A stretch of 64,000 nt of DNA from Enhydrobacter sp. (GTDB taxonomy: Bacteria > Pseudomonadota > Alphaproteobacteria > Reyranellales > Reyranellaceae). The stretch lies in NCBI RefSeq assembly GCF_030246845.1, contig NZ_CP126889.1, positions 186,001-250,000 on the forward strand, in the 5' to 3' direction. The position numbers were made by a program, and so were the translations under genes. Shown piece after piece: positions 4,947 through 49,612 of the stretch (positions are counted from its first letter, which is position 1; each line of letters begins with the position of its first letter). The notes under the pieces are model-generated. The model was not told the DNA's origin. It worked only from the letters and a program-made list of their open reading frames with translations, and ran no database searches.

Positions 4947-6500
4947 ATGGATCGCCCGCCGCCGTCAGCCGCCTACAAGTTCGGCACCTTCACGCTCGAT
5001 GCTGAGGCCGGCTTGCTGTTCCGCGGCGGGAAGCCCGCGCTGCTGGGCCAGCGCGCCGTCGCGCTGCTGCGCCTTCTCCTGGAGCGCACCGCCTCTCCTG
5101 TCTCCAAGGATGCGCTGATCGCGGCGGCATGGCCGGGACTTGCCGTCGAGGACAGCAATCTCACGGTCCAGATCGCAGCCCTCCGCCGCGTGCTGGAGCA
5201 GGACGGCGGCGCCGGCTGGATCGAGACGCTGCCGCGCCGCGGCTATCGCTATGTCGGGCCGCCGGCATTGCGCGTCGACGCCGATGCGAGCGAAACGCCA
5301 AGAACGCCTGCGCTGCCGGCGCCCGAGAAGCCGTCGATCGCGGTCCTGCCGTTCGAGCATTCGGGTGACACCGCCTGGTTCGCCGACGGCATGGTCGACG
5401 ACATCATCACCGGGCTGTCGCGCATCAAGTGGCTGTTCGTGATCGCGCGCAACTCGAGCTTCGTCTATCGCGACCGGATGATTGACGTGAAGCAGGTCGG
5501 CCGCGACCTCGGCGTGCACTATGTGCTCCAGGGCAGCGTTCGGCGGAGCGACAATCGCGTCCGCATCAACGCCCAGCTCGCCCACAGCACGAGCGGCGCG
5601 CAGGTCTGGGCCGAGCGTTACGATCGCACCTTGCACGACGTGTTTGCGCTGCAGGACGAGATCGCGCTCTCGGTGGTGGGCGCCATCGAGCCGAGTCTGC
5701 GCCGCGCCGAGGTCGAGCGCATCAAGCGCAAACGGCCCGACAGCCTCGACGCCTACGAGCTCGTGCTGCGTGCACAGCCCGATGTCGATTCGGGCATGCC
5801 CGATCGCGCCGCATCGGCGCTGCCGCTGCTGATGCGCGCCCTCGCGCTCGATCCCACCTACGCTCTCGCCCATGGCCTCGCGGCGATGGCCCATCACAAT
5901 CGCTTCCTGCGCGCCGGCCTGAAGGAGGAGGATCGCCTCGCCTCGATGCGTCACGCGCGTCTCGCGCTGGAACACGGTCGCGACGATGCGCTGGCACTCA
6001 CCTTCGCCGGCTTTTCGCTCGGCATGGATGCCCACGATCGCGCCGCCGCATTCGCCGCATTCGAGGCCGCGCTCGCGCTCAGCCCGTCGACCGCGCTTGG
6101 CTTCATTCTCGGCAGCGTCGTTCATAGCTGGGCGGCGGAAGCAGAGCCCGCGATCGCTTGGGGCGAGCGCGCGCTCCGCCTCTCGCCGTTCGATTCCTGG
6201 GCGTTCGCGGCGTTCGGCTCGCAGGCGCTCGGTCATTTCCTGCTGGAGCGGCCGCACGAAGCGGCAAAGGCGGCCTACCAGGCGGTGCAGGCCAACCTTG
6301 GCCACAGCATCAACTATGTGATCCTGATCGGGCCGCTGGTTGTGCTCGGCCGGCTAAGTGAAGCGAAGACCGCCGCCTCACGCGTGATGGAACTGCAGCC
6401 CACGTTCCGCATCAGCCGGCAATTTGCCGGTGTAGACTGCGCGCCCGTGCTCGCCGCGAAGCTGGGTGCCGCGCTGCGTGCGGCCGGATTGCCCGAATAG
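4947..6500 (+). CDS. Winged-helix regulator with TolB-like and TPR region (CadC-like)
   Basis: A 517-residue protein. Residues of about 8-100 form an OmpR/CadC-type winged helix (LLGQRAVALLRLLLERT, SNLTVQIAALRRVLEQ, TLPRRGYRYVG). Residues of about 120-245 are the TolB-N-terminal-like domain common in rhizobial regulators (KPSIAVLPFEHSG, HYVLQGSVRRSDNRVRINAQL). The rest is helical repeats of the TPR type. No membrane span separates the domains, unlike true CadC. An in-frame ATG at 4896 is possible; 4947 is preferred because it begins just before the conserved domain. The signal it senses is unknown. Confidence 0.85.
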   Translation: MDRPPPSAAYKFGTFTLDAEAGLLFRGGKPALLGQRAVALLRLLLERTASPVSKDALIAAAWPGLAVEDSNLTVQIAALRRVLEQDGGAGWIETLPRRGYRYVGPPALRVDADASETPRTPALPAPEKPSIAVLPFEHSGDTAWFADGMVDDIITGLSRIKWLFVIARNSSFVYRDRMIDVKQVGRDLGVHYVLQGSVRRSDNRVRINAQLAHSTSGAQVWAERYDRTLHDVFALQDEIALSVVGAIEPSLRRAEVERIKRKRPDSLDAYELVLRAQPDVDSGMPDRAASALPLLMRALALDPTYALAHGLAAMAHHNRFLRAGLKEEDRLASMRHARLALEHGRDDALALTFAGFSLGMDAHDRAAAFAAFEAALALSPSTALGFILGSVVHSWAAEAEPAIAWGERALRLSPFDSWAFAAFGSQALGHFLLERPHEAAKAAYQAVQANLGHSINYVILIGPLVVLGRLSEAKTAASRVMELQPTFRISRQFAGVDCAPVLAAKLGAALRAAGLPE

Positions 6501-6769
6501 GAAGATATGAATAAGAAGATATGGAAGTGAAGAAGCCCGTCGCACGGGTCGGACTCGCGTCGATCGGGAGCATGTGCTGAAAGGTGTGGTGGCGATCGCC
6601 TTGCCCAGCGGGCTTGTCCGTTGCCCTATCGGCTACTGCTGATCGCCGGTAGCCTCTACGTGATCGCGTGCCGCCGTACGAACATTCGGCGGCCCTTGGC
6701 CGGGACAGAGCCACGCCTGGGCAAAGTGGCCCGGAACTGAAAGCAGAATCGAAGAACAGGGAGATCTTC

Positions 6770-7804
6770 ATGAAAAAATTGCTACTGCTGGCGGCGATCG
6801 GCCTGGCCGCGATCTCGTCCTCGGGCCCGGCGCTGGCCGGCAAGGACCTCGACACGGTCCGGGCCCGCGGCACGCTGATCTGCGGCGTGGCGGCGGGCGG
6901 CCTGGCCGGCTTCATGACGGTCGACAGCCAGGGCAAGTGGACGGGCATGGACGTCGATGTCTGCCACGCCGTGGCGGCGACGATCTTCGGCGATTCGGAG
7001 AAGGTGAAGTTCGTGCCGGTGTCGGGCCAGCAGCGCTTCACCGCGCTGCAGTCGGGCGAGGTCGACCTGCTGTCCAACAACACGACCTGGACCCTGACGC
7101 GCGACACCGCGCTCGGCCTCGACTTCACCGGCGTCACCTACTACGACGGCCAGGGCTTCATGGTGAACAGGAAGCTCGGCGTGAAGAGCGCCAGGGAGCT
7201 GAACGGCGCCTCGATCTGCGTGCCCTCGGGCAGCACCACCGAGCTCAACATCGCCGACTATTTCCGGGCGCAGAAGATGACCTTCAAGCCGGTCGTGTTC
7301 GACGACGCCGACCAGATCCGCGCCGCCTTCTTCTCCGGCCGCTGCGACGTCTATACCGGCGACCGCGCCCGCCTGTTCGCCACCCGCGCCGCCAACCCGC
7401 CGCCGCCGCTCAAGCCCGACGACTTCGTCGTGCTGCCCGAGATCATCTCCAAGGAGCCGCTGGGCCCGGCCGTGCGGCACGGCGACAACCAGTTCGCCGA
7501 CATCGTGCGCTGGGCGCAGTACGCGATGATCGAGGCCGAGGAGTACGGCATCACCTCGAAGAACGTCGACGAGATGCTGAAGAGCGACAATCCCAACATC
7601 AAGCGCATCCTCGGCGTCACGCCGGGCATGGGCAAGGCGCTGGGCGTCGACGAGAAGTGGGTCTACACCATCGTCAAGCAGGTCGGGAACTACGGCGAGG
7701 CCTTCGACCGCAACCTCGGCGCCGGCAGCCCGCTCAAGATCGACCGCGGCCTCAACAAGCTGTGGAAGGACGGCGGCCTGCAATACGCCCCGCCGATCCG
7801 ATGA
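6770..7804 (+). CDS. aapJ: Amino-acid ABC transporter substrate-binding protein (AapJ/BztA-like)
   Basis: A 344-residue periplasmic binding protein. The signal peptide (KKLLLLAAIGLAAISSSGPALA) is followed by a family-3 solute-binding fold: GTLICGVAAGGLAGF, SGEVDLLSNNTTWTLTRD and FSGRCDVYTGDR match AapJ/BztA, which feed general L-amino-acid ABC importers. GGGAGA lies 7 bases before the ATG. No permease or ATPase genes follow, so this is an orphan binding protein that would need a transporter encoded elsewhere. Confidence 0.9.
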   Translation: MKKLLLLAAIGLAAISSSGPALAGKDLDTVRARGTLICGVAAGGLAGFMTVDSQGKWTGMDVDVCHAVAATIFGDSEKVKFVPVSGQQRFTALQSGEVDLLSNNTTWTLTRDTALGLDFTGVTYYDGQGFMVNRKLGVKSARELNGASICVPSGSTTELNIADYFRAQKMTFKPVVFDDADQIRAAFFSGRCDVYTGDRARLFATRAANPPPPLKPDDFVVLPEIISKEPLGPAVRHGDNQFADIVRWAQYAMIEAEEYGITSKNVDEMLKSDNPNIKRILGVTPGMGKALGVDEKWVYTIVKQVGNYGEAFDRNLGAGSPLKIDRGLNKLWKDGGLQYAPPIR

Positions 7805-37904: not shown

Positions 37905-37977
37905 GTGTCATCCCGAGCGTAGCGAGGGATCTTTCGCAGCGTCGACCAAGGATCCCTCGCTACGCTCGGGATGACAC
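37905..37977. repeat. GTGTCATCC palindrome, closed arrangement
   Basis: GTGTCATCCCGAGCGTAGCG...GATCTTT and AAGGATCCCTCGCTACGCTC...GATGACAC. Both arms carry the compensating TA variant (GCGTAGCG/CGCTACGC), which keeps the pairing. It lies between the lipoprotein and glgX. Confidence 0.92.
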
Positions 37978-38069: not shown

Positions 38070-40301
<2,232 letters not shown>

Positions 40302-40353
40302 GACGCGGACCGCGGGCTTCCAGCCTGCTCATGGTGTGCCGCAAGAAAGAGAA

Positions 40354-40380
40354 GAGCGCCACAGGAGTTCGTCACCGACC
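40354..40380. repeat. Second repeat family, GAGCGCCACAGGAGTTCGTC
   Basis: It precedes the palindrome at 40428 by 48 bases, the mirror image of the 7833-7977 and 60361-60487 pairs. The connecting bases (CTCGGGAACGAAACTGCGCT) match those pairs, so the full repeated module is about 150 bp. The rest of 40302-40650 shows no gene. Confidence 0.7.
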
Positions 40381-40427
40381 AAGGGCAGACCCTCGGGAAC
40401 GAAACTGCGCTGCCTGCCGCAAAATGG

Positions 40428-40500
40428 GTGTCATCCCGAGCGGAGCGAGGGATCCTTGATCGGCGCCGCGAAAGATCCCTCGCCATGCTCGGGATGACAC
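40428..40500. repeat. GTGTCATCC palindrome, closed arrangement
   Basis: GTGTCATCCCGAGCGGAGCG...GATCCTT, the spacer GATCGGCGCCGCG, AAAGATCCCTCGCCATGCTC...GATGACAC. The bases after it (GACACTGGTTGGGCGCC) match those after the copy at 55495. Confidence 0.92.
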
Positions 40501-40568
40501 GACACTGGTTGGGCGCCCGATCGTGCTTCCTGTCGGTGGCGCGCTCCCCTGGAGGCGTAGGCGGGAAG

Positions 40569-40583
40569 TACCAGCGGCTGGTA
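40569..40583. promoter_or_regulatory. TACCA box 1
   Basis: TACCAGCGGCTGGTA is a palindrome within the conserved block GGCGGGAA-N-TACCA...TGGTAGA-N-AACGACC. It is 67 bases before ATG 40651. Boxes 2 and 3 lie before the LuxR-type gene at 42326. Confidence 0.65.
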
Positions 40584-40650
40584 GATAACGACCTGTTCAC
40601 AAGGGCGCCGCGGCGTGGCTACTGTGGGCGGGCACGGATGCGGCCTGGCG

Positions 40651-40860
40651 ATGTTCACCCTCAGCTTCTACGACCTGCAGAATCGTCGCGATCTCACCCG
40701 GACGTTCGACCGTCGTTCGGAAGCCCTGTCGTTCGCCGACGACCTCAAGCACAGGAAATGCCTCGTTCTCACCTTGCGGTTTCCCGACGGCTCGACCGTG
40801 GGCTCCACCGAGATCGCGGCGATGATCCGCGAGATGGCCCGGCACAAGCGACAGGCATGA
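40651..40860 (+). CDS. Hypothetical protein under a TACCA box, 69 aa
   Basis: 69 residues, alpha/beta (MFTLSFYDLQNRRDLTRTFD, KHRKCLVLTLRFPDGSTVGS). The start is uncertain: ATG 40651 is spaced from its TACCA box like the luxR gene is from box 3, while GTG 40615 would add 12 residues. A good terminator follows. Its likely co-regulation with the luxR-kaiBC operon is the main clue to function. Confidence 0.6.
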   Translation: MFTLSFYDLQNRRDLTRTFDRRSEALSFADDLKHRKCLVLTLRFPDGSTVGSTEIAAMIREMARHKRQA

Positions 40861-40866
40861 ACGAAA

Positions 40867-40889
40867 AAGGCGGCCGATCGGGCCGCCTT
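40867..40889. terminator. Terminator between convergent genes
   Basis: AAGGCGGCC and GGCCGCCTT pair around a five-base loop. A-rich bases lie upstream and TTCCTCGTCTT downstream, so it can end transcription from both the small gene and the OmpA gene. Confidence 0.8.
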
Positions 40890-40915
40890 CCTCGTCTTCG
40901 GTCCGTGCGCGCCGG

Positions 40916-41881
40916 CTACTGGATCACGATCTCCACGCGCCGGTTCTGCGGCTCGCGCACGCCGTCGCCGGTCGGCACCAGCGGCTGGGTCTCGCCCTTG
41001 CCGATCACCGAGATCGCCGTCGCCGGCACGCCGTCACGCACCAGGGCATCCTTGACCGCGTTCGCGCGACGCAGCGACAGCGCCATGTTGTAGCTCGCCG
41101 GTCCGGACGTGTCGGTGTGGCCGGTGGCGGTGATGCGGGCGCTGCCCTTGGTCTTGTAGGCGTCGGCCGCCTGCTGGATCGTGCCCAGGGCCTGCTGCGA
41201 CAGGTTCGAGCGGTCCCAGTCGAAGAACACCATGAAGGATGGCGCGCTGGGCGCGGCCGGCGGCGGCGGTGGCGGCGCCACGGCCGCAGGCTGGCCGAAC
41301 TTGTAGCTGACGCCCAGCATGACGGCGATGTTGTTGTTCTCGTAGAAGCCCGGATTGGTCGTGCCGTAGTAGCGGCCCTCGAGATCGACGCGGATGTTCT
41401 GGGTCGCGTTCCAGCCCAGGCCGATCATGCCCTGGTAGGCGAACTGCGTGCTGCAGAGCGAGCAGCCGTTGATGGCGTTGTCGGCGAAGGCGACGCCGAG
41501 GCCGGCGCCGATATAGGGCGTCACCACCGCGCCCGGAAAGAAATCGTAGAGCGCATTGGCCATCACGCTGACCTGCTCGATGCGGCCGGCGCTGTTGCTG
41601 AAGATGTTGCCGAAGTTCGCCGTGCCGCGCCCGTTGTTCGAGCGGTACATGCCTTCCAGCTCGAGCCTGGGGCCGACGAAGTCGTAGCCGACCTTGCCGC
41701 CGACCGCGTAGCCCAGATCCATGTTGTAGTTGCTGCTGTTCAGCAGCCAGTTGAGACCGCCTTCCGCGCCGATATAGAAGCCCGGGAAGGATTGCCCTGG
41801 CGTGAACCAGTCGGATTGTGCATTGGCTGCCGCCATCGGCAGAGCGACGAGGGCCGCTGCGCCCAGCAGTGTGTTCTTCAT
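40916..41881 (-). CDS. OmpA-family outer membrane protein
   Basis: 321 residues. A signal peptide (KNTLLGAAALVALPMAAANA) is followed by an eight-stranded beta-barrel at about 30-200 (GFYIGAEGGLNWLLNSSNYN), a proline linker (APPPPPPAAP) and a C-terminal OmpA-like peptidoglycan-binding domain (TATGHTDTSGPASYNMALSL, PQNRRVEIVIQ). It tethers the outer membrane to murein. GGAAGGA precedes ATG 41881. Confidence 0.92.
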   Translation of the reverse strand: MKNTLLGAAALVALPMAAANAQSDWFTPGQSFPGFYIGAEGGLNWLLNSSNYNMDLGYAVGGKVGYDFVGPRLELEGMYRSNNGRGTANFGNIFSNSAGRIEQVSVMANALYDFFPGAVVTPYIGAGLGVAFADNAINGCSLCSTQFAYQGMIGLGWNATQNIRVDLEGRYYGTTNPGFYENNNIAVMLGVSYKFGQPAAVAPPPPPPAAPSAPSFMVFFDWDRSNLSQQALGTIQQAADAYKTKGSARITATGHTDTSGPASYNMALSLRRANAVKDALVRDGVPATAISVIGKGETQPLVPTGDGVREPQNRRVEIVIQ

Positions 41882-42056
41882 GTGAGGCTGTCCTTCCAGG
41901 CGAAGTTGCAGAAACGAAGTCAAGTCGGCTGTCAGAACAGCCTCTCGCCCCGTTTATTTTTCGCGATCATACAGCCGTCGCCGCGAGGATCACCGAGCGA
42001 TGCGCGCCGTCATGTCGATTTGCGGCGAGTGTGCCGGGTGGGCAACAGGCGGGAAC

Positions 42057-42072
42057 TACCAACCGACTGGTA
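42057..42072. promoter_or_regulatory. TACCA box 2
   Basis: TACCAACCGACTGGTA within GGCGGGAAC...GGTAGATTGCGACCAG. The half-sites are one base further apart than in the other boxes. It lies 254 bases before the LuxR-type gene, separated from box 3 by a GTGTCATCC repeat. Confidence 0.6.
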
Positions 42073-42112
42073 GATTGCGACCAGCCGACAATGAAGCGCC
42101 GCACAGGACTCG

Positions 42113-42185
42113 TGTCATTCCGAGCGCAGCGAGGAATCTTTTGCAGCGCCGATCAAGGATCTCTCGCGTCGCTCGGGATGACACG
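42113..42185. repeat. GTGTCATCC palindrome between TACCA boxes 2 and 3
   Basis: GTGTCATTCCGAGCGCAGCG...AATCTTTT and AAGGATCTCTCGCGTCGCTC...GATGACAC, closed arrangement, with spacer GCAGCGCCGATC. It splits the upstream region of the luxR-kaiBC operon. The interval 41882-42325 otherwise holds only the two TACCA boxes. Confidence 0.9.
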
Positions 42186-42240
42186 ACATGGCCTGCCGTG
42201 TCGGCCTCATGGCGGAATCAGGGCGGACATGGGGCGGAAA

Positions 42241-42255
42241 TACCAATGACTGGTA
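42241..42255. promoter_or_regulatory. TACCA box 3
   Basis: TACCAATGACTGGTA preceded by GGGGCGGAAA and followed by GAAAGCAACCAG. It is 70 bases before ATG 42326, almost the same spacing as box 1 has from 40651. Confidence 0.65.
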
Positions 42256-42325
42256 GAAAGCAACCAGTGCCCGAGGCCGGCGTTGACGAGACGGAGAACG
42301 ACACGAACCCGGACCGAGGAGAGCA

Positions 42326-43015
42326 ATGGATCACGTCATCGACGAGGGCGTGCGCGAGCGCGGGCGGCTGGAGGCGATCGCCAGGGCACTGGGCGACGGC
42401 GTCGTCCTGGTCGACCGGAGCGGCGAGATCCTGTGGATCGACCGCGCGACGCGCCGGCGCATCGATGGCGAGCTCGGCAAGCTCGACCTGCCGCTGCCGC
42501 GTCCCGCCGGGCGCGCGATCGACTGCTTCGCCGCGCCGGTCGATCTCACCGTCAATGGCGAGCGGCTGAGCCTCTGCGTGCTGCAGGAGGCCGACGCGCG
42601 CGCGGACAGCGGACAGGATCTGCTCGCGGCGCTGGAGACCATCATGGCCGACAGCGCCTCGTGGCTGACGCGCACCGTGCTCGACAAGCTCAAGGCCATC
42701 GGCCGGCCGGTCGAGTCGAACGGGCCGGCGCGCGGGCGCGATCTCGACCTCCTGAGCGATCGCGAGCGCGAGGTGCTGGGCCTGATCTGCGAGGGCAAGA
42801 GCGGCACCGCGATCGGCGACATCCTCGGCCTCTCCGAGAACACCGTGCGCAACCACATCGCCTCGCTCTACCGCAAGATCGGCGTCAACCGCCGCTCGGG
42901 CGCGATCATCTGGGCGCGCGAGCGCGGCATCACCGGCCGCGACTCGATCGCGATCGGCCGCGCCGGCCGCAACCGCGAGCGCGCGCGGCAGGCGCAGCGG
43001 CTACTAGGCGACTAG
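42326..43015 (+). CDS. LuxR-type regulator with PAS-like sensor
   Basis: 229 residues. The N-terminal 110 residues look like a PAS domain (ARALGDGVVLVDRSGEILWI). Residues of about 145-205 form a GerE/LuxR helix-turn-helix (LLSDREREVLGLICEGKSGT, LGLSENTVRNHIASLYRKIG). There is no receiver or AHL domain. GAGGAGAGC precedes the ATG. It is followed after 48 bases by kaiB, so it probably heads the kai operon, and the TACCA boxes upstream are candidate autoregulatory sites. Confidence 0.85.
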   Translation: MDHVIDEGVRERGRLEAIARALGDGVVLVDRSGEILWIDRATRRRIDGELGKLDLPLPRPAGRAIDCFAAPVDLTVNGERLSLCVLQEADARADSGQDLLAALETIMADSASWLTRTVLDKLKAIGRPVESNGPARGRDLDLLSDREREVLGLICEGKSGTAIGDILGLSENTVRNHIASLYRKIGVNRRSGAIIWARERGITGRDSIAIGRAGRNRERARQAQRLLGD

Positions 43016-43063
43016 TCCTTTTCTCTCTCTTGCCGCGAACCGGCATCGGCGGTTCGATGGGCA

Positions 43064-43339
43064 ATGCTCCGCCTCTACATCGCCGGCAATTCCGCCAGCT
43101 CGCGACGGGCCGAGCAGAACCTTGCCCTGCTGCGACGACACATGAAGCCCGGCGAGTGGAAGATCGAGGTCATCGACGTGCTGCTGCGGCCCGATCTGGC
43201 CGAGAAGGCGGGCATCCTCGCCACCCCCACCCTGTCCTGCGATCTGTCGTCCCGGCCGCGCCGCGTCGTCGGCGATCTCGGCGACACCCGGCGGGTGCTG
43301 GAATTCCTTGGCATCGAACCCGGCGGTGACGGCGCATGA
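43064..43339 (+). CDS. kaiB: KaiB-like protein
   Basis: 91 residues with the thioredoxin-like KaiB pattern: LRLYIAGNSASSRRAEQNLA, EVIDVLLRPDLAEKAGILAT followed by PTL. KaiB binds KaiC rings and changes fold in cyanobacteria; in bacteria without KaiA it is thought to act in simpler timers or stress responses. Its stop overlaps the kaiC ATG by four bases. Confidence 0.87.
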   Translation: MLRLYIAGNSASSRRAEQNLALLRRHMKPGEWKIEVIDVLLRPDLAEKAGILATPTLSCDLSSRPRRVVGDLGDTRRVLEFLGIEPGGDGA

Positions 43340-44820
43340 ACTCGATCGACATCGACACACCCGAGGTCCTCGAACGGGTGCAGACCGGCGTGAAGGCGTT
43401 CGACGACCTCGTGATGGGCGGCCTGCCGCGCGCCCGCACCACCATCGTCGGCGGCACGCCGGGCAGCGGCAAGACCGTGTTCGCCACGCAGTTCCTCGCC
43501 CACGGCATCACCATGTACGGCGAGAGCGGCGTGCTCGTGACCTTCGAGGAGCCGCCGCGCGACATCGAGGCCAACATGCGCGGCTTCGGCTGGGACCTCG
43601 CGCGCTGGCGCCGCGAGGGCCGGCTCGCCTTCGTCGATGCCAGCCCGCCGACCGACGAGGAGATGGTGATCGGCGACTTCGATCTCGGCGGCCTGCTGTC
43701 GCGCATCCTGCATTCGGTCAAGGCCGTCAACGCCCGCCGCGTCGTGCTCGACTCGCTCACCCAGCTTTTCGACCATTTCATCGGCGACCCCAGGATCATG
43801 CGGCGCGAGCTGTTCCATATCAGCAACGCCCTGAAGCAGGCCGGCCTCACCGTGCTGATGACGGCCGAGCGCAACAGCGAGTACGGCGAGATCACGCGCC
43901 ACCGGCTCGAGGAGTTCGTGGCCGACAACGTGGTGATCCTGCGCAACGTGCTGCACCGCGAGAAGCGCCGGCGCACCATCGAGGTGCTGAAGATGCGCGG
44001 CAGCCATCACGCCGAGGGCGAGGCGCCGTTCACCCTGCTCGCCAACCAGGGCGTGGTCGCCGTCCCCCTCTCCTCGCTCCGGCTCGAGCAGCAGTCGAGC
44101 ATGGTGCGGGTGACGAGCGGCAACCGCGCGATCGACGAGATGTGCGGCGGCGGCTTCTTCCGCGACAGCGTCACCCTGGTGAGCGGCGCCACCGGCACCG
44201 GCAAGACGCTGCTCGTCACCAACTTCCTGGCGGGCGGGGTCGCGGCCGGCGAGAAGGCGATCCTGTTCGGCTACGAGGAGAGCCGCGGCCAGCTCTTCCG
44301 CAACGCCAGCGGCTGGGGCGTCGACTTCGCGCGCATGGAGGAGGAAGGCCGGCTGCGCGTGATCTGCCTCTATCCCGAGGCGCAGGGCCTGCCCGACCAT
44401 CTGCTCACCATCCAGGCGCTGGTCGACGAATTCCAGCCCAACCGCATCGCCGTCGACAGCCTCTCCGCGCTCGAGCGCATCGCGTCCGACACCGGCTTCC
44501 GCGAGTTCCTGATCAGCCTCACCTCCTTCATCAAGAAGCGCGAGATCGCCGGCCTCTGCACCGCCACCAGCAAGTCGCTGGTGGGCGGCCAGAGCGCCAG
44601 CGAGCAGCACATCTCCACCCTCACCGACTCGATCGTCCTGCTGCGCTACATCCAGGAGCAGGACACCATGCATCGCGGCCTGATGGTGCTGAAGATGCGC
44701 GGCAGCGAGCACGCCAAGGAAATCCGCCGCTTCACCATCGACGGCGCCGGCATGCATCTCGGCGCGCCGTTCCGCGAGGCGCCGGACGTGTTCGCGGGCG
44801 GCGGCGACTACGCGCGATGA
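43336..44820 (+). CDS. kaiC: KaiC-like double-ATPase
   Basis: 494 residues, two RecA-like domains. CI has Walker A GGTPGSGKT and the catalytic pair in VTFEEPPRD. CII has Walker A SGATGTGKT and FGYEESRGQL. The phosphorylation region reads HISTLTDSIVLL, so the Ser-Thr pair matching S431/T432 of Synechococcus KaiC is kept. Hexamer formation and autophosphorylation are expected from family. It overlaps kaiB and the following kinase gene by four bases on each side. No kaiA is present. Confidence 0.93.
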   Translation: MNSIDIDTPEVLERVQTGVKAFDDLVMGGLPRARTTIVGGTPGSGKTVFATQFLAHGITMYGESGVLVTFEEPPRDIEANMRGFGWDLARWRREGRLAFVDASPPTDEEMVIGDFDLGGLLSRILHSVKAVNARRVVLDSLTQLFDHFIGDPRIMRRELFHISNALKQAGLTVLMTAERNSEYGEITRHRLEEFVADNVVILRNVLHREKRRRTIEVLKMRGSHHAEGEAPFTLLANQGVVAVPLSSLRLEQQSSMVRVTSGNRAIDEMCGGGFFRDSVTLVSGATGTGKTLLVTNFLAGGVAAGEKAILFGYEESRGQLFRNASGWGVDFARMEEEGRLRVICLYPEAQGLPDHLLTIQALVDEFQPNRIAVDSLSALERIASDTGFREFLISLTSFIKKREIAGLCTATSKSLVGGQSASEQHISTLTDSIVLLRYIQEQDTMHRGLMVLKMRGSEHAKEIRRFTIDGAGMHLGAPFREAPDVFAGGGDYAR

Positions 44821-46703
44821 GGATGTCCGGCGGCAGCCTCGACCAGACCGAGCTGCGCTTCCTCGTCGAGAAGAACGCAGACGGCATCATCGTCGTCGAC
44901 GGCGACGGCGTCGTCCTGTTCGCCAACCCGGCCGCCGAGGAGATCTTCGGCCGGCCGCCGGCCGTGCTGATCGGGGCGCCGATCGGCATTCCCGTCGCCG
45001 CGGGCGAGACGACGGAGATCGCGGTCCATCGGCCCGACGGCCGGCTGGTCGAGGCCGAGATCCGCGTCGTCGACACGGTCTGGAACCAGCAGCCGGCGCG
45101 GCTCGCGACCCTGCGCGACGTCTCCGCCCGCAAGGCGATGGAGGAGCGGCTGCGCCACACCGCCAAGATGGAGGCGGTCGGCCGGCTGACGGCCGGCATC
45201 GCGCACGACTTCAACAACCTGCTGACGGTGGTGCTGGGCAACCTCGACAGCGCGCGCCGCCAGCTCGCCTCGACCGAGGCGACGCTGGCGCAGGCGCTCG
45301 AGAACGCCACGCGCGGCGCCGAGCGCGCCGCCGGCCTCACCAGCCGCCTGCTGGCCTTCGCCCGCCGCCAGCCGCTCGAGCCGCGATCGGTCGACGTCAA
45401 TGCGCTGGTCGAGGGCATGTCCGATCTCCTGCGCCGCTCGCTTGGCGAGGAGATCCGCGTGGTCACCGCGCTTGCGCCCGAGCCCTGGACGGTCGACGTC
45501 GATCCGACCGAGCTCGAGGCGGCGATCCTGAACCTCGCCGTCAATGCGCGCGACGCCATGCCGAAGGGCGGCGAGCTTCGGATCGTGACCGCCAATGTCG
45601 GGCCCTTCGACGAGGCGCGGGCGGCCGAGCTCGACCTCGCGCCCGGCGCCTATGTCGCCATCATGGTCGAGGATTCGGGCACGGGCATGGAGGGGCACGT
45701 CCTGAAGCAGGCGCTCGAGCCCTTCTTCACCACCAAGGGCGGACGCGGCACCGGCCTCGGCTTGAGCCAGGTCTACGGCTTCGCCACGCAAAGCGGCGGC
45801 ACGGTCGCCCTGCAGAGCGCGCCGGGACGCGGCACGGCGGTCCGCATCTATCTGCCGAAGGCCGAGGCGATGACGGCGCCGGAACGCGAGCGCGAGGCCG
45901 TGCGGTCGATGCCGTCGCCGATCCGACCGGTCGCCGAGCCGCACGCCGGATCGGGCGAGACGATCCTGGTGGTCGAGGACGACGAGGATGTCCGGCGCTA
46001 TGCCGTCGGCGCGCTGAGCGGCCTGGGCTACCGCGTGCTGGAAGCCGGCGACGGCCTCGAGGCGCTCGGCCTGATCGAGCGCGAGCCCGCCCTGCGCCTG
46101 CTGCTGACCGACCTCGGCCTGCCGGGCGGGCTCGACGGCCGGGCACTGGGCGAGCGCGCACGCCACGGCCATCCCGGCCTCGCGGTGCTGATCATGACCG
46201 CCTACGCCGCGACCTCGCTGATCCATGACGGCCGGCTCGATCCCGGCATCGACCTGCTGGCCAAGCCGTTCACGCGCGAGGCGCTGGCGCAGCGCGTCCG
46301 CGCGCTGCTCGACCGGGAAGCGACGCCGGTCGAACGGCGCGTCCTGCTGGTCGAGGACGAGGTGCTGGTCCGGCTCTACGCCGCCGACGCGCTGGGCGCG
46401 CTCGGCTGCACCGTCGAGCAGGCGGCGAGCTTCAAGGAGGCGCGCGCCACGCTCGAGCGCCTCGGCCCGTCGCTGGCCGCCGCCGTGATCGATCTCGGCC
46501 TGCCCGACCGGCCGGGCGACGCCCTGGTGACGGAGATCCGCGCCCTTCTGCCGTCGCTGCCGATCCTGCTCGCGACCGGCTATGCCGACGCCGCCGTGCG
46601 CGCCCGCCTGCCGGCCGACCCGCTGCTGCGCATCGTCGGCAAGCCCTTCCAGCCCCACGACCTGCGATCCGCCTTCGAGGCCCTGGGCCTGCGCCTCGGC
46701 TGA
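44817..46703 (+). CDS. Hybrid histidine kinase with two receivers, coupled to kaiC
   Basis: 628 residues, soluble. A PAS domain at about 10-110 (NADGIIVVDGDGVVLFANPA) is followed by HisKA with phospho-His in RLTAGIAHDFNNLLTVVLGN, an HATPase (LNLAVNARDAMPKGG, VEDSGTGMEG, GTGLGLSQVYGF), receiver 1 (LVVEDDEDVRRYA, Asp in LLTDLGLPGG) and receiver 2 (LLVEDEVLVRLYA, Asp in AVIDLGLPDR). Its ATG overlaps the kaiC stop as ATGA. It is the probable output of the KaiBC module, as in kaiBC-kinase clusters described in purple bacteria. Confidence 0.9.
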   Translation: MRMSGGSLDQTELRFLVEKNADGIIVVDGDGVVLFANPAAEEIFGRPPAVLIGAPIGIPVAAGETTEIAVHRPDGRLVEAEIRVVDTVWNQQPARLATLRDVSARKAMEERLRHTAKMEAVGRLTAGIAHDFNNLLTVVLGNLDSARRQLASTEATLAQALENATRGAERAAGLTSRLLAFARRQPLEPRSVDVNALVEGMSDLLRRSLGEEIRVVTALAPEPWTVDVDPTELEAAILNLAVNARDAMPKGGELRIVTANVGPFDEARAAELDLAPGAYVAIMVEDSGTGMEGHVLKQALEPFFTTKGGRGTGLGLSQVYGFATQSGGTVALQSAPGRGTAVRIYLPKAEAMTAPEREREAVRSMPSPIRPVAEPHAGSGETILVVEDDEDVRRYAVGALSGLGYRVLEAGDGLEALGLIEREPALRLLLTDLGLPGGLDGRALGERARHGHPGLAVLIMTAYAATSLIHDGRLDPGIDLLAKPFTREALAQRVRALLDREATPVERRVLLVEDEVLVRLYAADALGALGCTVEQAASFKEARATLERLGPSLAAAVIDLGLPDRPGDALVTEIRALLPSLPILLATGYADAAVRARLPADPLLRIVGKPFQPHDLRSAFEALGLRLG

Positions 46704-46764
46704 CTTGCCGGAGCCTCCCGAAGCGGCTTGCGTCCGCGACGCCCGGGCCTATCTGCTGGTCGCG

Positions 46765-46998
46765 ATGTCGAGCGGACGGCCGAAGTTCAGGAACGACCGC
46801 GGCGTACCCGAGATCCGCATCGGGACGCGCGAGTTCGAGTGCATCGGCGTGTCGCCGCCGCTCGATCATCCGCACATCTACATCGACATGGGCGCGGCCG
46901 ACGCGATCCGCTGTCCCTACTGCGCCACGCACTTCCGCTTCGATCCGCGCCTGTCCCCGGCTGCCGCCGATCCGCCTGACTGCGCCTTCGAGGATTGA
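46765..46998 (+). CDS. Zinc-finger protein (zf-CHCC type)
   Basis: 77 residues. FRNDRGVPEIRIGTREFECI is followed by DHPHIYIDMG and IRCPYCATHFRFD, the C-H-C-C ligand pattern of the small zinc-finger proteins related to the complex I NDUFS6-type subunit. ATG 46765 matches the usual family start; no strong ribosome-binding site is visible. It lies 61 bases after the kinase and may be on the same transcript. Confidence 0.82.
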   Translation: MSSGRPKFRNDRGVPEIRIGTREFECIGVSPPLDHPHIYIDMGAADAIRCPYCATHFRFDPRLSPAAADPPDCAFED

Positions 46999-47033
46999 AC
47001 GGGACCGCCCCGCCGGAAATTGCGCGCGGCCCT

Positions 47034-47061
47034 CTTGACGGTCCGGTGCGCCAACCTACAT
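47034..47061 (+). promoter_or_regulatory. RpoH-type heat-shock promoter
   Basis: CTTG-N17-CCTACAT fits the alphaproteobacterial sigma-32 consensus CTTG-N17/18-CYTATNT at all but one position. It lies 84 bases before the first hsp20 gene. Inferred by eye. Confidence 0.55.
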
Positions 47062-47145
47062 CGCCGCCATCTTCGGCCGGCCGGGCAATGCGCTCGAGCA
47101 CCGCGACCGCAGCCTCGTCGCCGGCCCCTAAAGCAGGAGGCAGAC

Positions 47146-47577
47146 GTGGCATTCTTCTTCGATCTCAGCGATCCATTCGAGACGCTGCTCGGTTTCCAGC
47201 AGGCCCTCGACCAGTTGCGCGCCAGCGCATGGCTCGATTCCGGGTTGAGCGGCCAGGGCTCCTTCCCGCCGCTGAACGTCTTCCGCAAGGACCAGGACAT
47301 CGTGGTCATCGCGGAGGTGCCGGGCGTGAGGAAGAGCGACCTGCAGCTGGAGATCAAGGGCAACGCCATTCGCATCGCCGGCACGAAGCAGGCCGGCCCC
47401 GAGGAGAAAGCGAGCGTGCACCGGCGCGAACGCCGCAGCGGCCGCTTCGACCGCACGATCACTTTGCCGATCGAGATCGACGCCGATGCCGTCAAGGCCG
47501 AATGCCGCGACGGCATCCTCGCCCTGTTCCTGCCGCGCGCCGAGCACGACAAGCCGCGCGCGATCACGATCAACTGA
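47146..47577 (+). CDS. Small heat-shock protein Hsp20 (1)
   Basis: 143 residues. The alpha-crystallin domain is at about 40-135 (PPLNVFRKDQDIVVIAEVPG, VRKSDLQLEIKGNAIRIAGT, LPIEIDADAVKAECRDGILA). An ATP-independent holdase in the cytosol. GTG 47146 with GGAGG 5 bases upstream is the start. It is first of a tandem pair and follows a likely RpoH promoter. Confidence 0.9.
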   Translation: MAFFFDLSDPFETLLGFQQALDQLRASAWLDSGLSGQGSFPPLNVFRKDQDIVVIAEVPGVRKSDLQLEIKGNAIRIAGTKQAGPEEKASVHRRERRSGRFDRTITLPIEIDADAVKAECRDGILALFLPRAEHDKPRAITIN

Positions 47578-47608
47578 CCCGATGCAGCCGAAGCGAAAGG
47601 AGGCGACC

Positions 47609-48004
47609 ATGGCTGACCAGGCGCTGCAGGTGCAGGAGAAGAAGGAGCTGGTGCCCAAGGGCGAGAAGACCGTCCCCGCCCGCTACTACGTGCCGACCAC
47701 CGACATCTACGAGACCGACGACGCGCTGACCGTGGTGATGGAGGTGCCCGGCGTCGACCGCAAGGATGTCGAGGTGCGGATCGAGAACGACGAGCTGCAT
47801 GTCGAGGCGCGGATCGAGTTCTCGAAGTACGAGGGCATGGAGCCGCTCTACACCGAGTACAATGTCGGCCATTTCACGCGCACCTTCATGCTCTCGCAGG
47901 CCGTCGACCAGCAGCAGATCAGCGCCGCGATGGCGGACGGCGTGCTGACGCTGACGCTGAAGAAGGTGCAGCAGGCACAGCCGCGGCGCATCGCGATCAC
48001 CTAG
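47609..48004 (+). CDS. Small heat-shock protein Hsp20 (2)
   Basis: 131 residues with an alpha-crystallin domain (YVPTTDIYETDDALTVVMEV, VEVRIENDELHVEARIEFSK, GVLTLTLKKVQ). It is a different subfamily from its neighbour, closer to the short sHSPs with YYVPTTDI near the start. AAAGGAGG lies before ATG 47609. The 31-base gap suggests co-transcription with the first hsp20. Confidence 0.9.
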   Translation: MADQALQVQEKKELVPKGEKTVPARYYVPTTDIYETDDALTVVMEVPGVDRKDVEVRIENDELHVEARIEFSKYEGMEPLYTEYNVGHFTRTFMLSQAVDQQQISAAMADGVLTLTLKKVQQAQPRRIAIT

Positions 48005-48020
48005 GCTGGTCGGAAAGCCG

Positions 48021-48200
48021 ATGGCAAAGCCCTGTCCGGAGAGACTCAATCCGGCGCACGACGCCGCCGTGCGCCGGATGCTGGAACCGCCACCCGCGCC
48101 GAAGAAGCCGGCGAGGAGGGGCAAGCCGGCGAGCAGGGAATCGGGACGGCCGAAGACCAAGCCCGTTGCGGCGGCCCGGCGGTCGCGGCGGCGGCGCTGA
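48021..48200 (+). CDS. Short, very basic Lys/Arg/Pro-rich protein
   Basis: 59 residues ending in a poly-Arg tail (ARRSRRRR) with a histone-H1-like middle (APKKPARRGKPASRESGRPK). It starts 16 bases after the second hsp20 stop; GGAAAG is a weak ribosome-binding site. It could bind DNA or RNA. The low complexity limits certainty. Confidence 0.45.
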   Translation: MAKPCPERLNPAHDAAVRRMLEPPPAPKKPARRGKPASRESGRPKTKPVAAARRSRRRR

Positions 48201-48388
48201 TCGCCGCCTATGTCGTGGTAGCGGCTTCCAGGATCGTCCTGGCGACGACGTTGGAAGCATCGCCTGTTGCCATCGCTTTGCGCAGGATAACGTCATGCCG
48301 GCGCGCGCGGAATCATAGATATCGAGCAACTGATCCGGCTTGGCGGGTTCTCTTCAAATGACCTACGGGTATGGGCGGAGCTCAACTT

Positions 48389-49612
48389 TCATGCTTGGAC
48401 CTCCGCCTCCGGCTGGCGCATTGCGACCGGGACAAAAACCAGAAGGGCAAGTGCCGAGCCCGCCGTCAGGATGACCGCAAGGGACGCAGACGGCTGGAGA
48501 GGCAAGACGCTTGCGAACGACGCGCCGATGGCTGCGCAACCCATCTGCAGAAAGCCCAGCAGTGCGGAGGCCAGGCCGGCCTGCCGCCCGAAAGGATGGA
48601 GCGCGATCGCCGTGCCGAGCGGATTGATCAGTCCCATGCCGAGCAGATAGAGCGCGATGGCGATGGTGAATGCCATGAAGGTCGGTGCCGCGGCGAACGC
48701 GAACATGAACAGGCTGCCAGCGAGGGCGATGAAGAGGCCGATCATGCCGACGGTGCGCTGTCCCCAGCGATCAGCCAGGCGTGGCGCGAGAAACCCGGCC
48801 GCGAACACGATCAGAACCGTCGTCGCGAAAGACAATCCGAGTTCAAAGGCGGTAAGGCCAAGCCCGCTCATCAGGACCGCAGGCGCCGCCGCGAAGAAGG
48901 TGTAGAGGCCGCCGATGACGAGGCTCACTGAAAGGGCGGGAAGGAGAAAGCGCGGATCGACGGCCAAGCGGCCGTAGGCGGAGGCCACGGCCGAAGCCGC
49001 CAGGGACGTCCTGCGGCCCGTCGGATGCGTTTCGCCGATGCGCCTCGCGTAATGCAGCGCGAGCACCGCGCCAAATGCCGCGACGACGACGAAGGTAATC
49101 CGCCAGCCGAACAGGGCGTCAAGCGCGGTTCCGAGTAGAGGCGAAAAGCCCGGTGCAGCCGCCGCGGCAATCATGGTCAGCGCCAGAGCCCGCGCCAGAG
49201 CGTCGCCGTCGAACAGGTCGCGTGCGATGGCGCGCGACAGGACCGAGGCTGCGCAAGCCCCGAGCGCCTGGATGACACGGCCTACGATCAGGAAGGACAA
49301 GGTGTCGGCGAAGGCGCAAAGGACACTGCCCGCGGCGAAGACCGCGAGGCCCCCCAGAACCAGCCATTTGCGGCCGAAGCCGTCGGAGAGCGTTCCGGCC
49401 AGAAGTTGTCCGAACGCGAAGGCAACGAAGAAGCTGCTCAACGACAGGCCGAGTTCCTGGGAAGAAACGCCGAGGCTGGCGCCAATCCGTGGAAAGGCGG
49501 GAAGGATGATGTTGGTGGCAAGCGCGCCCAGCGCGGCCAGACCGGCGAGCAGGAACAGGATTCCCCCGCTCAGCCGGCGCTCGGAAGCTGCGGGTTTCGA
49601 AAGTGCGGACAT
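48389..49612 (-). CDS. MFS drug transporter, Bcr/CflA-like
   Basis: 407 residues with 12 predicted spans. Motif A between spans 2 and 3 is AGTLSDGFGRKWLVLGGLAV, and the export motif region is RVIQALGACAASVLSRAIAR, as in Bcr/CflA multidrug exporters. The start is ATG 49612 with AGGA 8 bases upstream. It lies 43 bases downstream of the TetR gene on the same strand, so the regulator probably controls it. Confidence 0.88.
   Translation of the reverse strand: MSALSKPAASERRLSGGILFLLAGLAALGALATNIILPAFPRIGASLGVSSQELGLSLSSFFVAFAFGQLLAGTLSDGFGRKWLVLGGLAVFAAGSVLCAFADTLSFLIVGRVIQALGACAASVLSRAIARDLFDGDALARALALTMIAAAAAPGFSPLLGTALDALFGWRITFVVVAAFGAVLALHYARRIGETHPTGRRTSLAASAVASAYGRLAVDPRFLLPALSVSLVIGGLYTFFAAAPAVLMSGLGLTAFELGLSFATTVLIVFAAGFLAPRLADRWGQRTVGMIGLFIALAGSLFMFAFAAAPTFMAFTIAIALYLLGMGLINPLGTAIALHPFGRQAGLASALLGFLQMGCAAIGASFASVLPLQPSASLAVILTAGSALALLVFVPVAMRQPEAEVQA

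Follow-up and report, generated by a model that had tools for sequence, protein, structure and literature searches.

The closest described counterparts of the locus considered here, a cassette of luxR, kaiB, kaiC and a hybrid histidine kinase gene in the alphaproteobacterium Enhydrobacter sp., are kai clusters of more than one kind. In the KaiA3-KaiB3-KaiC3 systems of Synechocystis, which are also known from Rhodospirillum and Bradyrhizobium, the likeness lies in a regulator gene directly 5' of kaiB that is followed by kaiC, and KaiA3, reported in Bradyrhizobium too, is described in the portion of PMC11372060 available to us as a receiver N-terminus joined to a KaiA-like part and encoded upstream of kaiB3. 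In the purple bacteria Rhodopseudomonas palustris and Rhodobacter sphaeroides, the likeness consists of KaiB, KaiC and a PAS histidine kinase occurring without KaiA in the sections of PMC4794148 drawn on here, while the gene order there is kaiC-kaiB-kinase and the KaiC2 protein has two serines and a tail longer by about 50 amino acids (aa) (PMC4794148 and PMC10076222, both in part). Finally in Methylorubrum extorquens AM1 (kaiC1-kaiB2-kaiB1-kaiR1 and kaiC2-kaiR2), an alphaproteobacterial KaiC is likewise tied to stress tolerance, but the gene set and order are different and the phosphosites are serines, according to the excerpts of PMC8069551 at hand.

The cassette lies in a stretch of 64,000 nucleotides (nt), hereafter the window, which covers positions 186001-250000 of a 5.44-Mb genome in a single contig. 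Its open reading frames run on the + strand from 42326 to 46703 in the order luxR (42326-43015, 229 aa), kaiB (43064-43339, 91 aa), kaiC (43336-44820, 494 aa) and hybrid kinase (44817-46703, 628 aa), and the coordinates bear out the original prediction for this order, for the luxR-kaiB spacing of 48 nt and for the ATGA overlaps at both kaiB/kaiC and kaiC/kinase. Compared with the purple-bacterial clusters, the cassette has the order kaiB-kaiC-kinase, a Ser-Thr pair in a KaiC without the tail, luxR in the first place, a double-receiver kinase and an EcfG-type promoter. Compared with the KaiA3 systems, where KaiA3 acts on KaiC, the slot before kaiB holds instead a DNA-binding LuxR without a receiver, accompanied by matching DNA sites, and KaiC has no long tail. 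A published description of this cassette was not found in the open PMC papers, a collection outside which most subscription papers fall, nor was a paper there treating EcfG jointly with kaiC, and within this literature the cassette is a new variant of KaiBC-kinase clusters.

We hold with moderate confidence that the cassette would be a self-contained KaiBC module, induced by EcfG and autoregulated by its LuxR, for which the kinase serves as a separate output. Its gene set, its promoter, its twin dyads and the short end of its KaiC are borne out by conservation among the relatives compared below, where loci carry L numbers and genomes G numbers.

Promoter and dyads flanking luxR

In the DNA 5' of luxR, a single block aligns well among the relatives, namely a dyad, 5 nt, and then G[GC]AAC-N16/17-CGTT, whose CGTT lies 9 to 63 nt before the luxR start codon. 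This pattern is the EcfG consensus as given in the parts of PMC7083833 used here (the motif also appears in PMC6599016, likewise seen in part), and it is found in 24 of 24 luxR upstream regions where 0.07 would be expected under a first-order Markov model, and in none of five control windows. In the window it reads GCAAC-N16-CGTT (P1, 42260-42284, + strand), GCAAC being among the two most frequent -35 boxes of Sphingopyxis granuli according to the same portion of PMC7083833. The original prediction had no such stress-type promoter, which is new in this analysis. Moreover, the same genome carries a general-stress locus (L158, C1:4150500-4157500) in which nepR overlaps an ECF sigma factor gene, with a second ECF sigma factor gene beside it and phyR; because of the overlap with nepR, we infer that one of the two sigma factors is EcfG. 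Together with the promoter at all 24 luxR loci, the presence of NepR, an ECF sigma factor and PhyR in the genome gives the likeness to the EcfG regulon of alphaproteobacteria. A small gene at 4653-4850 of L158 looks CsbD-like by eye.

Just before P1 stands an operator-like dyad, O1 (ACCA-N5-TGGT, 42242-42254), for which ACYA-N5-7-TRGT occurs at this place in 20 of the 24 loci, and a second dyad, O2 (ACTA-N6-TAGT, 43003-43016), spans the luxR stop codon and is kept with a spacing of N5-7 in 22 of 24. In the exact form ACYA-N6-TRGT, there are 37 copies in the 86,897 nt of the 24 loci, with 18 at O1, 15 at O2 and 4 elsewhere. One position of the O1 arms covaries (C-G in 7 loci, T-A in 12, C-A in 4 and T-G in 1, thus 5 of 24 mismatched; Fisher p=0.008, with descent ignored). 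Sequence-only profiles of O1-P1 and of O2 were run over 30 genomes, 23 with the cassette and 7 as controls, and each gave one strong match per cassette genome, 23 of 23 at the cassette (E-values 1e-3 to 2e-9 for O1-P1 and 2e-7 to 4e-15 for O2), with the next-best matches in these genomes at E>=0.01 and no match below E=0.05 in the controls; since the profiles were built from the very sites they recover, with the best 150 candidates per genome scored, the informative part of this result is the lack of other comparable sites. Another 26 kai loci that lack this luxR have P1 and dyad together in no case, with single matches in a few.

At a fixed distance 3' of O2, a CT-rich CTCTTG[CT] block is present in 24 of 24 loci, and [CTG]GTT lies 17 nt beyond this block in 21 of 24 (both counts made by eye). 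The corresponding parts in the window are TTTTCTCTCTCTTGC (43019-43033) and GGTT (43051-43054, 17 nt past TTGC), and they would make up a candidate LuxR-dependent kaiB promoter, P2 (43019-43054, + strand). In L075 an insertion of about 600 nt follows luxR, and O2 remains with kaiB there. A second promoter may be present in the element conserved between the two genes, so that the cassette need not be a single operon; the argument for co-transcription from the 48-nt gap was abandoned, because the gap varies up to about 660 nt in one relative and holds this element. Of 19 relatives, 15 share the 4-nt overlap of kaiB with kaiC and just one that of kaiC with the kinase gene, the other 18 having a gap of 11-58 nt at the latter junction, with start codons chosen by script in both counts. 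A sigma-70 scan gave 0 promoter-like sites in 40000-49000 and a terminator scan gave none between luxR and kaiB, both scans being uninformative for this genome.

Several other interpretations of these elements were tried and rejected: O1 as a part of REP-like repeats, given that O1 is kept in relatives whose upstream DNA fails to align with this repeat; an RNA terminator at O2, where the stem is short and AU-rich; and a sigma-54 or heat-shock promoter in the CTCTCTTGC block, which fits poorly by eye. The REP-like hairpin repeats themselves, with GTCATYCCGAGCG arms, are located at 37905-37977, 40428-40500, 42112-42184 and further places (20 arm matches in 64 kb), one copy immediately 5' of the kai promoter region. 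An extra dyad, O1b (ACCA-N6-TGGT, 42058-42071), is seen at this place in none of the other 23 loci, and its region fits the O2 profile weakly on the - strand (E=0.014), facing a divergent OmpA-like gene. More generally, TACCA...TGGTA dyads followed by ACGACC, GCGACC or GCGACT occur at 40570-40582 (before a small gene at 40615), at 42058-42071 and near C1:179670 (L137, about 1501); they are possibly further LuxR targets or an unrelated operator.

Proteins of the cassette

The window's LuxR carries a GerE/NarL-type helix-turn-helix (HTH) domain (Pfam GerE, E=7e-17), and the GerE HTH is present in 23 of 23 cassette members. It had been called a PAS-LuxR, of which the HTH holds and the PAS ancestry holds by homology, while what is left of PAS is a remnant: the Pfam PAS model reaches only E=0.013 on the window protein, and none of the 23 members has a PAS match at E<=0.01. 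The domain scans of the window protein and the 23 members also matched no receiver domain, and those of the cassette LuxR gave no KaiA match. Over 174 aa the protein is 46% identical to the PAS3 end, linker and HTH of a triple-PAS LuxR of about 500 aa from Bradyrhizobium (L105), and its first residues resemble the PAS1 start of the same protein, which points to an N-terminus that is a PAS-derived remnant, i.e. a shortened sensor. Accordingly the likeness to the triple-PAS proteins (L105, L161) lies in this homologous region and in the dyad, and the difference in size, 229 against about 500 aa, with the sensor mostly gone. In an AlphaFold model the HTH is confident, and the N-terminus, of fair confidence, is a small alpha-beta part; Foldseek matched NarL, DosR and GerE folds to the HTH part only and returned nothing at E<=0.001 for the N-terminus by itself, and the PAS origin therefore rests on the homology to the long form.

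The dyad adjoins 6 of 9 long LuxR genes, at no more than 91 nt from the start on the 5' side or 19 nt from the stop on the 3' side. For example, the near-identical L105-L107 have ACTA-N7-TAGT 87-91 nt 5' of the start, and L108, L109 and L110 have ACYA-N6/7-TRGT 14-19 nt 3' of the stop codon; L111 and L112 have a dyad only at far distance and L113 has none. None of the nine loci has the EcfG pattern with a dyad upstream, dyads on both sides, or a KaiB or KaiC match, L112 (G530) coming after a kai cassette. Whether kai genes are present or not, the dyad thus accompanies this LuxR subfamily, an argument for autoregulation, and L105-L110 probably belong to a LuxR subfamily sharing one operator type. 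In G530 as well, L161 (4787-7104) holds a kinase gene that has lost a large internal part, and after it comes the gene of a triple-PAS LuxR of 506 aa (5584-7104) akin to the cassette LuxR.

KaiB is recognised by PF07689 (E=1e-14) and by the NCBIfam KaiB models below their cut-offs. KaiC has two ATPase domains (Pfam KaiC ATPase in two stretches, E=3e-103) and exceeds both NCBIfam KaiC equivalog cut-offs, with 629 bits against 408 and 554 against 546; the same ATPase family matches two further genes in the genome, weakly (E 6e-10 and 1e-8). The phosphosites are kept as predicted, with HISTLTD in the window and HIST[LM]TD in 19 of 19 relatives read, and the Ser-Thr pair corresponds to the S431/T432 position of KaiC. 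The Walker A motifs GTPGSGKT and GATGTGKT are kept as well in the relatives read (GSPGSGKT in L080), and KaiC is the most conserved member of the cassette, with a mean distance of 0.12 against 0.34-0.49. No kaiA is found inside the cassette, in agreement with that part of the original prediction, the whole genome not having been searched for KaiA.

The end of KaiC merits particular attention. In 19 relatives the total length is 488-497 aa, the five of the clade that were measured stop 36-42 aa past KMRGS, and residue 488 of 494 in the window aligns with residue 492 of Synechococcus KaiC; with the A-loop taken to be Synechococcus residues 488-497, the cassette KaiC would end at the A-loop start, and the tail that it lacks is the KaiA binding site. 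The C-terminal stretch is 45 aa in KaiCs of 79% identity and 54-60 aa in KaiCs with a receiver-type protein upstream (L011, L056, L127-L129), and tail length grades also with sequence distance. In cyanobacteria the buried A-loop inhibits KaiC phosphorylation, as described in the available part of PMC11372060, and a KaiC without the A-loop should thus phosphorylate without KaiA.

The receiver-type proteins just mentioned are of 279-292 aa and lie 5' of kaiB in three Bradyrhizobium genomes with KaiCs of 52-54% identity (L127-L129), in L011 and in L056. Four of four upstream proteins scanned, those of L011, L056, L127 and L128, match the receiver model (L127 slightly below the Pfam cut-off), and neither Pfam nor NCBIfam nor profiles of solved structures (best 60 of 295) revealed a KaiA-like C-terminus in them. 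By architecture, position and the published list of genera, they are proteins resembling KaiA3. The Ser-Thr pair is kept in four of these five sister clusters, with Ser-Ser in L056, and none of 265 Bradyrhizobium genomes has both KaiC types together at E<=1e-100.

The kinase has Pfam PAS, HisKA and HATPase_c domains followed by two Response_reg stretches, the two receivers that had been predicted (PAS-HisKA-HATPase_c-REC-REC). Residues H130, D432, K483, D559 and K609 are invariant in 11 of 11 complete kinases aligned, the truncated ones of G530 (mostly deleted) and G578 (shortened) being omitted. LuxR and kinase distances correlate with r=0.91 (153 pairs).

Distribution and linkage of the cassette

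Of the 40 loci obtained by scanning the named genomes with LuxR, 7 are matched over almost its full length, and in 6 of these 7, kaiB, a KaiC of 87-91% identity and the kinase follow downstream. In the seventh (L019, the same as L085, in the Bradyrhizobium metagenome-assembled genome G467), luxR, P1 and both dyads are followed by a kaiB with a broken start and a KaiC of 26% identity, and here the KaiBC part looks as if replaced. Three of the six complete ones, L014-L016, are by their coordinates from the same assemblies as G003, G032 and G005. The counts for Bradyrhizobium and for the window's genus are lower bounds, with the best 10 or 5 candidates per genome scored. Among the 265 Bradyrhizobium genomes, at least 25 have a LuxR match, which starts at residue 1-11 in 18 and comes from long relatives only in 7; at least 17 have a KaiC of the cassette clade (84-89% identical, plus one split gene), and in 17 of 17 it adjoins luxR. 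The split gene is that of G688 (L099/L130/L131), where the KaiC frame is broken into two overlapping pieces. In the window's genus, luxR is present in at least 6 of 65 genomes with kaiBC adjacent in 6 of 6, and all 5 close KaiC matches from the 37 of the 65 genomes searched for KaiC stand beside luxR; in addition, G019 and G022 have distant KaiCs (35% and 31%) without this luxR beside. The check proposed together with the prediction, whether luxR is conserved next to kaiB in relatives, hence comes out in its favour in both groups. Moreover the LuxR and KaiC distances correlate over 20 loci (r=0.90, Mantel p=0.0005). KaiC clusters of another family with 79% identity (L068, L069; L159, L160) have kaiB-kaiC-kinase without this luxR.

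When 387 genomes were drawn evenly from the class and the best four candidates per genome were scored, the cassette clade was seen in the window genome only. The surroundings of the cassette mostly change. In a comparison of 13 longer loci, the cassette genes are the only ones common to three or more, save the long LuxR of L161, which matches the cassette LuxRs; genes shared pairwise in the flanks do occur, a gene of 55-56% identity in the window and L165 and two weaker pairs, and the right flanks of L016 and L166 are nearly nil. The cassette thus appears in sequence comparison as a discrete unit with mostly changing surroundings and a patchy presence, which suggests its horizontal movement or repeated loss. 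As for the flanks in the window genome, a zf-CHCC protein gene and two tandem Hsp20 genes lie directly 3' of the kinase (46765-48004), with no match in the 14 related loci searched, some of which have short flanks, and the divergent OmpA-family gene on the other side (40916-41878) has a 60% counterpart in L014.

A possible mechanism and its alternatives

The reading of the cassette as an EcfG-induced, LuxR-autoregulated KaiBC module may be put as a sequence of steps. Under general stress, EcfG would transcribe luxR from P1, the motif being conserved; a LuxR dimer would then bind O1 by P1 and O2 before kaiB and set its own level as well as that of kaiB, kaiC and the kinase. KaiC, ending at the A-loop, would autophosphorylate its Ser-Thr pair without KaiA, and KaiB would bind CI and reset KaiC, which might produce a slow switch or an hourglass-like timer begun by the stress pulse. 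Through its PAS domain the kinase might sense KaiC or a small signal, and it would pass phosphate through the two receivers to an unlinked partner rather than to LuxR, direct phosphotransfer from kinase to LuxR being unlikely because LuxR has no receiver. The remnant sensor of LuxR may receive a signal from KaiC or another source, which is the weakest link of the model. LuxR binding, its regulatory sign, the timer behaviour and the kinase partner are what we infer here. The feedback loop through LuxR, as originally proposed, gains cis evidence from the twin dyads flanking luxR, to which binding is predicted.

A number of observations weigh against this reading. The O1 spacing is N5 in the window and L074 and N6 in the other 18 exact sites; exact O1 is missing in 4 of 24 loci and O2 with N5-7 in 2 of 24 (N8 in L074, the right arm only in L101). 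P2 has no GGAAC box, of which the AAC is almost invariant in EcfG -35 boxes (PMC7083833, in part). LuxR has neither a receiver nor a recognisable ligand domain through which the timer might reach it. The KaiCs of 57-60% identity without an upstream receiver protein (L054, L055, L071) keep tails of 50-55 aa, and the loss of the tail is thus not a simple consequence of losing that protein. Also, G467 retains luxR and both sites with a degenerate kaiB and G530 has its kinase largely deleted, so parts of the cassette are dispensable. Finally, the timer behaviour of this KaiC is argued by analogy, and the binding, expression and phosphorylation parts of the model are read from sequence.

The alternative that survives best is a stress switch rather than a timer, where KaiBC and the kinase would constitute a clock-independent device of stress resistance. 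We consider this quite possible, though not probable: the EcfG-type promoter in 24 of 24 loci accords with it, as does the stop of KaiC at the A-loop, through which KaiA acts, while the retained Walker A motifs and phosphosites and the strong conservation of KaiC suggest a demanding function. Links of KaiBC homologues to stress in Legionella and Pseudomonas (PMC11372060) and roles of KaiC proteins in UV and temperature tolerance in Methylorubrum extorquens (PMC8069551) also speak for it in the portions of these papers at hand. The stress switch and an hourglass are however compatible and not mutually exclusive.

According to a second alternative, which seems unlikely, the twin dyads would be bound by another regulator encoded elsewhere, for example of TetR or NarL type, with the targets of LuxR elsewhere and the local loop only apparent. 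TACCA...TGGTA-like dyads do resemble TetR-type operators, dyad-like copies exist elsewhere in the genome (40570, 42058 and near C1:179670), and the binding of LuxR to O1 and O2 is a prediction. But the dyads flank luxR itself, the full elements occur once per cassette genome, and neither the 26 kai loci nor the 7 genomes that lack this luxR have the set of sites; the dyads stay with luxR where kaiB is broken (L085) and adjoin 6 of the 9 genes for long relatives, whose loci all lack a kai match. Besides, LuxR has an HTH of the NarL/GerE type, and such domains commonly recognise short inverted half-sites.

It could further be imagined that LuxR took over the position and the role of KaiA3, acting on DNA and contacting KaiC directly, as the sister clusters with their upstream proteins, receivers in the four scanned, and the lack of a genome with both KaiC types at E<=1e-100 among 265 of Bradyrhizobium might intimate. 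This is very improbable in our judgement, for the GerE domain of LuxR is clear and the protein does not match KaiA, the cassette KaiC lacks the tail where KaiA binds, and the KaiA-like character of the sister receiver proteins is itself unsupported by sequence searches. Still less credible is a plain two-component pair in which the hybrid kinase has LuxR as its cognate response regulator, with KaiBC in a modulating role: the gene neighbourhood and the correlated LuxR and kinase distances agree with such a pair, but LuxR has no receiver and hence no standard phosphoacceptor. As to an ordinary KaiC2-type hourglass cluster of the purple-bacterial kind, the likeness drawn in the original prediction from kaiB, kaiC and a PAS kinase lying together without kaiA, it is contradicted and practically dismissed by the Ser-Thr pair in place of two serines, the missing long tail, the other gene order and the far higher score to cyanobacterial KaiC (520 bits to 1tf7 from Synechococcus against 291 to 8dba from Rhodobacter).

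Going beyond the autoregulated module, a further idea is advanced tentatively, with the balance of doubt on its side: a transcription factor would have replaced the KaiA-type input, and a stress-gated transcription loop in a mobile four-gene cassette, rather than a protein-only oscillator, would drive the KaiC timer. It is put forward because a shortened PAS-LuxR with twin operators fills the KaiA3-like slot, next to a KaiC without the A-loop and the KaiA-binding tail.

Little is known of what drives KaiC, and of what reads it, in bacteria that lack KaiA. In this cassette a promoter, candidate operators, a regulator, KaiB, KaiC and a kinase are gathered within about 4.5 kb and conserved in two alphaproteobacterial groups, which suggests that KaiC has been joined to the general stress response in alphaproteobacteria, and that a transcription factor and a KaiA3-like receiver protein have been exchanged for one another in the gene slot before kaiB. 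With so compact a conserved cassette, input, timer and output are open to piecewise study in cultured Bradyrhizobium, and a KaiC system without KaiA becomes directly testable.

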